Of a DNA stretch of 59,622 nucleotides, positions 38,529 through 40,937 are shown one piece after another; position 1 is the first letter of the stretch, and every line of letters starts with the position of its first letter. The notes beneath the pieces were generated by a model, which was not told where the DNA came from, ran no database searches, and saw only the letters and a program-made list of their open reading frames with translations. A program made the translations under genes and the position numbers. The stretch covers positions 1-59,622 of the forward strand of contig JADCEN010000021.1 of NCBI GenBank assembly GCA_020250175.1. Reading direction: 5' to 3'. The DNA is from Rhodobacter sp. GTDB taxonomy: Bacteria > Pseudomonadota > Alphaproteobacteria > Rhodobacterales > Rhodobacteraceae.

Positions 38529-38725
38529 TCCGGGCCGTGTCAGGCGGGCGGCGTCCCGCCAACACGCGCGGGTGATCGACCGGCGCATCTGTGGACGAAA
38601 CACAAAGGTTTTGCTTGCGCGCGCCGGATTCGCGACTATTGCTTTGGGGGTGTTGAAGGCTGTGGCACGTTGCGATCTGTCCGCAGGTGACGCTGTTGTT
38701 GGTGAGGATCAGGAGTGTGCGGCCC

Positions 38726-39400
38726 ATGAGTAAACTTGTGCATAGCAAACGTCGGACTGCGGTTGCCTTGGGCGCCGTAGCGCTGCTGGTCGGGGGATGT
38801 TCGGGATCGTCCGGAACACCCCAGGACGATTTTGCTGTCAGGCCGATTGCATCGTTCGCGGCGACCGATGCACTCAGCCGCCAGCTGTTCGCCGAGACAG
38901 TCGGTTTGAACCCCACGCGCAGTTCCCAGCTTCCGGTTACGGGCACGGCAAGGTACACGGGCGCTGTTTCTTACGTGGACAGCAACACCACTTTCATTCC
39001 AAAAGACATGAAGTTTCCAGAGTATGAGACTTTCATCATCAATAACCCGGATTATGTATCGCGGATACGGATGACGGCAGATTTCGCGGGCGACAGTATT
39101 TCCGGTTCCATGGACAGCTTTCGCAACGCCAACAACGTGCCGTTTCGTATCGGCATTACCTTTGATGGCGCAATAGAGGATAGCAGAGACAATACTGCCG
39201 CCTTCACTGGCACGCTTTCAGGAACCAACGAGATTCAAACGGGACCAACCGAGTTTGAAACAAAGAATTTTACTGGCAGTCTGGCGGGAAACTTCTTGGG
39301 TGGTCAGGGTGACTCGGCCCTTGGTACTCTTGCGATCAAGAGGGGCTTTACCGGTGAGGAGTTTGGCGATGTTTTCGGGGTGTTCACTGCGAAACAGTGA
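38726..39400 (+). CDS. TbpB-like beta-barrel surface lipoprotein (Slam-substrate type)
   Basis: 224 residues. A lipoprotein signal peptide ends with the lipobox LVGGC (acylated Cys25). The mature part is rich in alternating strands and ends GDVFGVFTAKQ. Segments such as RMTADFAGDSISGSM, GTLSGTNEIQ and SLAGNFLGG follow the pattern of TbpB-type eight-stranded barrels, the class of lipoproteins moved to the cell surface by Slam proteins. The ligand is unknown. AGGAG at 38711-38715 lies 10 bases before the ATG. Base composition is clearly lower in GC than the neighbours. The stop overlaps the start of the barrel gene. Confidence 0.72.
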   Translation: MSKLVHSKRRTAVALGAVALLVGGCSGSSGTPQDDFAVRPIASFAATDALSRQLFAETVGLNPTRSSQLPVTGTARYTGAVSYVDSNTTFIPKDMKFPEYETFIINNPDYVSRIRMTADFAGDSISGSMDSFRNANNVPFRIGITFDGAIEDSRDNTAAFTGTLSGTNEIQTGPTEFETKNFTGSLAGNFLGGQGDSALGTLAIKRGFTGEEFGDVFGVFTAKQ

Positions 39401-40482
39401 TGACGATTGCGGATCGCATGACCTTCGTGCAACTTGTCCGGTTTGCAGGCGCAATCTTCATTGTCTTCGGTTCGGCGGCTGTATCGCTTGCCCAGACAAC
39501 GGGTAACCTGGCGCGGGACCGGCAGGGTTCATTTTTTTCCGTTTCGCCGCGTCTGGTCTTTTACACCCTGGTACAAAGGGCCGTTCCCGGAACTGAAGGC
39601 GCGGCTGCGGTTTTGGCACAGGGACTGGGCTTTCTGCACCAGACGGGCAAGGGCCCTCAACGCGCCTGGAACATCAGAAGCCTGCAGCCGGTTCTGTCCT
39701 ACAGCCCCAACATCAATGGCGGACTGGCGGGGGATTCGTTCAAGATCGGCGGACTCGTGTTCGAGATCGATCCCGAATATCGGGCCGTCGCCGGTCCGGT
39801 GGTAGGCGGCGCGTTTTCACAATCTGTCGGGTGGAGTATTGGCACCGGTCAGACCGTTTCTGTGGCCGGTGGCGTATCCATCGTCTATTCGCCGGATTAC
39901 GACATCAGCAGAACCAAGGCGAACGGTCAGGCCTGTTTACGCTCTTACTTGGAAGACTGGCGGTTCCTTGACCTGTGCGGCGGAGCCTTTTATGAAAGTG
40001 CCGACCTGAGCGAGGCCGACGGCTCTTTCCTCAGTGCCAACTTTGCTCAACTCTTCTCGGCGCGGAACGGAACCGGGCTGGCCAATGCCTCGATCAACCG
40101 CGAATTCCAGCAGAATTACCAGAAGACATCCGTATCAGCCGGCGTCGAGCGCTATTTTGACGGACGCGGCGTGATAACGGCGCGCGTCGCCCTGGGCGAA
40201 GAGATCAAGGGTGAAAACACCCTGCTTTATGGCGGCTATCTGTCTTACGGGCAGCTTGTGCTTGGGGTCGGAACCAATATCGGCCTGTCCTATGAGCGCG
40301 ACGGCGGGGACGTGTTCTTTGGACAAGACCGAGCCGACGACGTCATTACCCTCGACCTTACCGGCCAGATCAACCCGTCGCTCAGCGCCACCCTGTCGGT
40401 TGAGAACCGCAGGTCCAGCATCGACCTGTTCAGCGGCGTGACGATCAGCCTGGATCTGAACCTCCTGAGCCTTCAGTTCTGA
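39400..40482 (+). CDS. Slam-like outer-membrane beta-barrel without TPR domain
   Basis: 360 residues: a signal peptide (cleaved after about ...AVSLAQ), a short leader, then an outer-membrane barrel ending in Phe. The segment IGGLVFEIDPEYRAVAGPVVGG and the closing strands with ENRRSSIDLF recall the barrel of Slam (surface lipoprotein assembly modulator, DUF560). Slam normally carries an N-terminal TPR domain of more than 150 residues, which is missing here. The start ATG at 39400 overlaps the lipoprotein stop (TGATG); a GTG at 39397 and an ATG at 39418 are alternatives. It is inferred to flip or assemble the lipoprotein encoded upstream. The assignment is by eye only. Confidence 0.6.
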   Translation: MTIADRMTFVQLVRFAGAIFIVFGSAAVSLAQTTGNLARDRQGSFFSVSPRLVFYTLVQRAVPGTEGAAAVLAQGLGFLHQTGKGPQRAWNIRSLQPVLSYSPNINGGLAGDSFKIGGLVFEIDPEYRAVAGPVVGGAFSQSVGWSIGTGQTVSVAGGVSIVYSPDYDISRTKANGQACLRSYLEDWRFLDLCGGAFYESADLSEADGSFLSANFAQLFSARNGTGLANASINREFQQNYQKTSVSAGVERYFDGRGVITARVALGEEIKGENTLLYGGYLSYGQLVLGVGTNIGLSYERDGGDVFFGQDRADDVITLDLTGQINPSLSATLSVENRRSSIDLFSGVTISLDLNLLSLQF

Positions 40483-40487
40483 ATCCC

Positions 40488-40937
40488 TCAGCCGCCGTAC
40501 AGCGTCGCCGCGCGCCGCTCGAACGCGCGGACCACGCGCTGCATCGCGTCATTGAACACCACGCCGATGATCCCCTGCAGGATGGCATTGCGAAACTCGA
40601 AATCCACGAAGAACTCCACCTCGCAGCCACCTTCGGGACGGTCGCGAAAGGCCCAGAACGATTTCATCCTGCGGAAGGGGCCGTCCAGATATTCGGTGTC
40701 GATCCGCTTCTTGCCGGGCCACAGCGTGACGCGGCTGGCGAATGTCTCGCGGAACACCTTGAAGGAAATCACCAGATCGGCCTCCATCACCTCGCCCTCC
40801 GGCACGGGGCGGCGGGCGGTGATGCGGGCGGCAGAGTTCCAGGGCAGGAATTCAGGGTACCGTGCCACATCGGCGACCAGATCATACATCTGCTGCGCGG
40901 TATAGGGCAGCACTTTGGTTTCGTGATGTGTCGGCAA
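40488..40937 (-). CDS. RatA/COQ10-type START-domain protein
   Basis: 149 residues of the polyketide-cyclase/START fold. The pattern YTAQQMYDLVADVARYPEFLPW, the ESCVEFFVDFEFRN-like strand (CEVEFFVDFEFRN) and the final helix with FERRAATLYG match COQ10/RatA proteins. In alphaproteobacteria these probably bind ubiquinone or help its delivery; the toxin label RatA comes from E. coli. TTG at 40937 is taken as start: a ggggga site lies 8-9 bases upstream and no ATG or GTG fits. Converges on the barrel gene, 5 bases apart. Confidence 0.85.
   Translation of the reverse strand: MPTHHETKVLPYTAQQMYDLVADVARYPEFLPWNSAARITARRPVPEGEVMEADLVISFKVFRETFASRVTLWPGKKRIDTEYLDGPFRRMKSFWAFRDRPEGGCEVEFFVDFEFRNAILQGIIGVVFNDAMQRVVRAFERRAATLYGG

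Follow-up and report, generated by a model that had tools for sequence, protein, structure and literature searches.

A pair of overlapping genes from Rhodobacter sp. (contig JADCEN010000021.1; the window is the whole stretch of 59,622 nucleotides that was analysed) is best explained, with a probability of about 0.7, as a two-gene surface-lipoprotein system. The first gene (38726..39400, with ATG at 38726 and stop TGA at 39398-39400) encodes P0001, a lipoprotein of 224 residues and the presumed cargo. The second (39400..40482, with ATG at 39400 and stop at 40480-40482) encodes P0002, a Slam-like barrel of 360 residues without a tetratricopeptide repeat (TPR) domain, which would be a translocator of P0001 of the Slam type (type XI secretion system, T11SS). 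Both genes, like their features described below, lie on the forward strand, and their open reading frames overlap as TGATG (39398..39402), with one base in common, just as the initial annotation had described. A translocator function is the best reading of P0002 and rests on its kinship with Slam and on its pairing with the lipoprotein gene, which is not a matter of chance, since it is conserved in relatives; from these we infer translocation, its direction, the recognition site and surface exposure.

Proteins with a lipoprotein signal are generally lipidated and delivered to the outer membrane, and P0001, made with such a signal, would follow this pathway. P0002, as a 14-stranded barrel of the Slam type, would then accept P0001 in an incompletely folded state, recognising the TbpB-type barrel domain at its C-terminus, and hand it over to the outside of the cell, where it would fold and stay lipid-anchored. 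Without a TPR array, recognition would sit in the periplasmic face of the barrel and in the short hairpin before strand 1. A broader proposal, to which we give slightly better than even odds, is that barrel-only relatives of Slam constitute a separate Rhodobacteraceae family that exports TbpB-type lipoproteins without TPRs, the barrel and a short hairpin being enough for recognition and translocation. The most fitting description of the P0002 family is that of a barrel-only variant within the Slam/T11SS kind; it is not filed as Slam proper because both a PF04575 match and a TPR domain were looked for and neither was found.

Kinship of the barrel family with Slam

The kinship of P0002 to Slam is well supported by profile comparisons and predicted structures. 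A sequence search of 295 Rhodobacteraceae genomes returned 21 relatives of P0002 in 20 genomes. In the same collection, the Slam family PF04575 (SlipAM, DUF560) had matches at E 0.001 in 98 genomes, above the cut-off in 90, and 30 of its 113 matches were taken as a Slam set. The 27 of these that remain without L026, L031, and L034 served for the 27-row alignment (A5), for the tree, and for counting TPR matches. In hhalign comparisons, the 21 barrels aligned with the 30 Slams at 98.8% (E 7e-17) and with the 27 Slams at 98.9% (E 3e-17), in both cases over 251 columns, and with 28 rows, after removal of two Slams with a short N-terminus, at 98.9% (E 2e-17). From the Slam side the alignment extends over 299 columns and includes the helical hairpin. 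Porins, used as a control (29 of 30 loci, L146 being left out), reached 11.0% with 29 rows; two rows proved to be wrong reading frames, and the 27 checked rows left without them reached 14.0%. A FadL control of 10 checked rows reached 2.4% against the barrel profile. At genome scale, the barrel profile recovered the same 21 relatives, one partial copy, and two PF04575 Slams (E 2.6e-12 and 1.9e-7), both of which have a TbpB_B_D match within 2.5 kb. Between the barrel profile and the lipoprotein profile no relation was found.

The AlphaFold2 model of P0002 (mean pLDDT, the predicted local distance difference test, 88.8) places a 14-stranded barrel at residues 87-360 (39658..40479); the 14 strands, a mini-hairpin, and short helical turns are common to this model and to that of the TPR-containing Slam L022, so that the structure prediction proposed in the initial annotation came out in favour of a Slam-like topology. 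The models differ in their N-terminal helices, of which L022 has seven and P0002 two confident short ones. These form a helical hairpin at residues 50-75 (39547..39624; model helices 50-60 and 66-75), which occupies the position that the TPR array has in Slam and falls inside the stretch aligned with the final portion of Slam's N-terminal region. The hairpin follows a signal-peptide-like N-terminus (residues 1-31, 39400..39492; model helix 3-28), with cleavage placed by eye near the junction of SLA and Q. At strand 1, the motif NINGG (39709..39723), of which N106 and G108 are invariant in 21/21 members, is the counterpart of Slam PSSN.N in the profile alignment. Between strands 1 and 2, a small beta-hairpin is predicted around IGGLVFEI (residues 113-123, 39736..39768), and the model of the TPR Slam has a like element. 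The closing motif ENRRSSIDLF (40402..40431), where a short helical turn precedes strand 14, corresponds in alignments and models to SN...Y.Y of Slam, and the C-terminal residue is Phe, in keeping with the earlier description of a signal-peptide-bearing barrel ending in this residue.

P0002 resembles Slam in its predicted 14-stranded barrel, mini-hairpin, closing motif, full-length profile alignment, and PF01298 lipoprotein neighbour. Its family differs in the lack of a TPR array and of a PF04575 match, in its position on the other side of the tree, and in a pair of cysteines, C179 and C193 (39934..39978), located by the model on the neighbouring strands 4 and 5. These family-specific residues are invariant in all 21 members and absent from the conserved columns of the Slam set; in the model a disulfide between them is possible. 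In the unrooted tree of barrel domains, one branch with support of 100/99 parts 29 TPR-less rows from 27 PF04575 rows. A further family of unknown function, PF11059 (DUF2860), matches 8 of the 27 Rhodobacteraceae Slams (best E 9e-6), and could likewise be related to the Slam barrel.

The lipoprotein partners

P0001 begins with a type II signal peptide (38726..38800), read from the sequence, whose lipobox LVGGC contains the predicted lipidated Cys25; this cysteine is invariant in 13/13 rows of a partner set (A4). A linker of approximately 43 residues, which would be too short to house a large handle domain of its own, leads to a TbpB_B_D domain at residues 69-224 (38930..39397; PF01298, 30.2 bits for a cut-off of 26). 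The lipoprotein with a Cys25 lipobox and a TbpB-like barrel of the initial annotation is thereby confirmed. Of the searches against profiles of TbpB and of Slam substrates, which it had also proposed, only the former passed its threshold, as the NCBIfam model slam_lipo (NF041636) gave 20.6 bits, under its cut-off of 80. Compared with the PDB as a single sequence, P0001 gave nothing convincing. P0001 resembles the cargo proteins TbpB, LbpB, and fHbp in this domain, and differs from them in having one barrel domain after a short linker.

The set A4 was chosen from the shorter kind of partner and comprises 13 lipoproteins from near the branch of P0002, among them P0001, those of its genus relatives, and those of Paracoccus. 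TbpB_B_D matches 13/13 of them, FHBP_C 8/13, and HphA_C 1/13 (E up to 0.1). Against the PDB, the A4 profile is strong on LbpB (1.8e-13) and TbpB (1.2e-9), while fHbp, GNA2132, and haemophilin lie at E 0.005 to 0.03, a range that also holds the unrelated MtrC. GNA2132 is also named NHBA. An A2 set (8 rows, 4 of them matching), the plasmid set, and eight further partners were scanned apart from A4.

A survey of relatives bore out the pairing. A lipobox gene stands directly upstream on the same strand of 12 of the 21 barrels (G000, G274, G057, G205, G051, G091, G222, G273, G175, G050, G086, and G046), and a lipobox neighbour in another arrangement was found at four (G107 twice, G090, and G207); one barrel is cut by the end of its contig (G181). 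Lipoboxes were called by script and by eye, with possible misses. The upstream lipoprotein is also present in three further genus genomes and at six further named loci, and at plasmid loci a gene precedes the barrel on the same strand in 7/7 distinct cases. According to a rough uniform estimate, PF01298 matches lie within 2.5 kb of the barrel far more often than expected by chance (6/21 barrels, 0.011 expected), as they do for PF04575 matches (16/113, 0.058 expected). Cultured examples are Paracoccus versutus, where the barrel has a TbpB-type partner, and Cereibacter sphaeroides 2.4.1, whose plasmid pC carries a barrel with a partner of the 290-residue type.

Among the seven plasmid partners, one has a TbpB_B_D match at 2.9e-5, just below the cut-off, and another at 0.014. 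The assignment of the 290-residue partners to the TbpB type was rejected: it reached 97% at first, from a set including L169, L170, and L171, and without these only the signal peptide aligned. L169 and L170 themselves match TbpB-type models, the former weakly, and L171 is divergent. Two side observations concern single genomes. G107 has two TPR-less barrels (L057 and L065), one with downstream lipoproteins and the other with a divergent CAP-domain lipoprotein, and, with 12 at E 0.001 or better, G294 has the most TbpB_B_D matches of any genome listed.

Absence of the TPR domain and rival explanations

The absence of a TPR domain claimed at the outset stands, with the refinement that the short helical hairpin remains before the barrel. 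TPR models had no match in P0002 and matched only 1/21 family members (E 0.085), whereas TPR_19 matches 24/27 local Slams. Slam is described with two TPRs and a predicted 14-stranded barrel (PMC7857515), and every Slam found in a 2017 survey had an N-terminal domain together with DUF560, none consisting of DUF560 alone (PMC5449769). DUF560-only proteins do exist in Rhodobacteraceae. In two of the 27 PF04575 Slams, the barrel is preceded by only 83 (L032) and 95 (L046) residues, a count that includes the signal peptide. Both match PF04575 (L032:1216-2340, 77.2 bits; L046:1195-2358, 53.6 bits), and neither matches any TPR model at E up to 0.1; L046 also lies within 2.5 kb of a match to PF01298 (G260:C3, E 7.5e-4). 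Both are placed inside the Slam side of the tree, so that a separate shortening of the N-terminus seems to have happened within the Slams. Their existence leaves the family of P0002 less isolated and makes the barrel-only reading more plausible. A result reported for NilB also fits a barrel able to work alone: small deletions in the TPR domain cause defects, which the removal of the whole N-terminal domain ameliorates (PMC8406197).

The TPR-less barrels are a family and not a local truncation. A recent loss of TPRs in this lineage was considered and is not supported, as the 29 TPR-less rows make up one whole side of the 100/99 branch. The earlier proposal of a reduced, one-substrate system holds in part: a genome with one PF01298 match, which is P0001, and no PF04575 match (both searched at E 0.001) fits one cargo and one translocator, while "reduced", in the sense of a recent local loss, is not supported.

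Several results weigh against the proposed system. PF04575 matches none of the 21 family members even at E up to 1, a threshold at which P0002 has no Pfam or NCBIfam match whatsoever; the Slam-likeness of the barrel, asserted from the beginning, is upheld by the profiles (98.8-98.9%) and the predicted 14-strand topology, yet not by the defining family model. Slam against FadL gave 91.1%, with a score of 57.5 compared to 131 for barrel against Slam, so that barrel profiles have a background similarity. Porin_4 matches 4/21 barrels (best 7.1e-5), and the closest solved structures to P0002 are the channels CymA and OmpG, with 6-9% identity in structural alignments. On the side of the partners, no lipoprotein was found near four of the 21 barrels (G195; G224, near a contig end; G030; and G236), and PF01298 at E 0.001 is present in only 6 of the 16 lipoprotein neighbours (G000, G274, G057, G273, G046, and G090). 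Four of the other ten are of the 290-residue type (A7) and have no TbpB-type match outside the signal peptide; of the remaining six, three have no match, one is a CAP-domain protein, and two have weak matches, to TbpB_B_D (0.12) and to HphA_C (0.015), respectively. The later checks cut both ways, since they brought more partners of other kinds, yet also TPR-free Slams inside PF04575.

In a rival reading, considered unlikely, P0002 is a 14-stranded uptake channel like CymA or OmpG, which is fed by a ligand-binding P0001 at the surface or in the periplasm and exports no lipoprotein; CymA and OmpG are themselves 14-stranded barrels. Among solved structures, P0002 and the TPR Slam alike match these two best, for which reason the fold was dropped as proof of Slam kinship, and Foldseek alone gave only low TM-scores. 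In a sequence-profile search of the PDB, chains of CymA and OmpG were absent at E up to 10.

Less probable still is the reading that P0002 translocates in the manner of Slam with the help of a TPR protein whose gene lies at another place in the genome. Bacteria commonly possess TPR proteins. The described Slams have TPRs (PMC5449769). The genome of P0002, which is 99.96% complete, holds no PF04575 match at E 0.001, in a search that was silent in control genomes and matched in 98/295 relatives; no search aimed at TPR proteins was made, and neighbouring genes were not compared systematically. In the remaining explanation, P0001 would be periplasmic and P0002 a barrel that is unrelated or degenerate and retained for other reasons; the site between housekeeping genes is uninformative about function. 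This is made very improbable by the conservation of the barrel, with residues invariant across the family, and by the PF01298 proteins that adjoin it far more often than expected by chance. The translocation of P0001 by P0002 is retained as the preferred explanation. Overall, what the initial annotation had observed was confirmed, and its interpretation was partly supported.

Genomic setting, distribution and implications

The pair is preceded in the window by IspDF, PgpA, and CinA, and followed by a Polyketide_cyc protein (COQ10-type), a phosphoribosyltransferase, a cytochrome c, and an MFS protein. Its guanine-cytosine (GC) content is lower than that of its surroundings, as had been noted (54.1% for the lipoprotein gene and 59.1% for the barrel gene, against 65.4% for the whole window), although this is not a trait of the family. 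At 14 other loci, the barrel lies below the rest of the locus in four and below the 900 bases upstream in seven, and low GC as a general mark of a foreign family was consequently discarded.

Seven genomes of the genus were compared, five of which carry the barrel, while the barrel search had no match in the other two. Four of the five carriers hold the pair at the site between CinA and the COQ10-type gene (G274, G297, and G298, as in the window), and in G295 it is located elsewhere in the genome. In G299 and G295, CinA and the COQ10-type gene are arranged differently, with another order and orientation of the CinA/PgpA block, so that the junction of the two genes at which the pair sits (window about 38530-40490 versus L087 and L089) resembles a point of rearrangement inside the genus. 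The stretch read in G296 did not reveal CinA, and no simple empty site could be demonstrated. Acquisition of the pair by this lineage, as first suggested, is plausible and partly supported, given the relatives borne on plasmids and the placement of the pair in the genus, at one site in four of the five carriers and elsewhere in the fifth.

Named relatives occur in Tabrizicola rongguiensis, Paracoccus versutus, P. alkenifer, P. solventivorans, Limimaricola pyoseonensis, and six metagenome-assembled genomes, as well as on 20 plasmid records (10 from Cereibacter, five from Ketogulonicigenium, two from Alloyangia, and one each from Gemmobacter, Paracoccus, and Ruegeria). In a draw of 385 genomes from the class, only the own genome matched; this draw is thin, as other carriers exist within the family. 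PF04575 matches are present in 3/20 genomes with the barrel and in 95/275 without it (Fisher p 0.087), and with 17 of the 20 barrel genomes devoid of such a match, the barrel seems to be independent of a standard Slam in the same cell. The four barrels near which no lipoprotein was found (L069, L071, L073, and L075) all fall in one subgroup of the tree (support 88/71); an N-terminal KREG...GLGLPG stretch is common to L069, L071, and L075, not to L073. At L167 (Gemmobacter fulvus) and L168 (Alloyangia pacifica), genes for cellulose synthesis are located a few kb away from the pair (bcsA, and bcsB with a glycosyl hydrolase of family 8, respectively).

Among the closest described groups is the "marine cluster 3" of T11SS outer membrane proteins (PMC12282271), which is likewise found in Rhodobacteraceae/Roseobacteraceae and has lipoproteins of 282-375 residues as proposed cargo at some loci. 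It differs in having been drawn from DUF560, which matches no member of the P0002 family, a difference at the level of the family models. Its reported neighbours, DUF1194 and thymidylate synthase, are not among the annotated genes in the flanks read at the seven distinct plasmid loci, and the main text contains neither "TPR" nor "tetratricopeptide". Among the titles and abstract beginnings searched, a scope outside which most full texts lie, no paper describing such a barrel-only family was found.

Existing annotations of plasmid loci L165, L168, L169, and L172 are misleading, with barrels named lipocalin or hypothetical protein and partners named viral aspartic protease or ribosome-recycling factor. 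Because the barrels examined bear such names, the export of surface lipoproteins in Rhodobacteraceae is suggested to be undercounted. A barrel-only family paired with Slam-type cargo would also make the role of the TPR domain directly testable in small two-gene systems of cultured bacteria.
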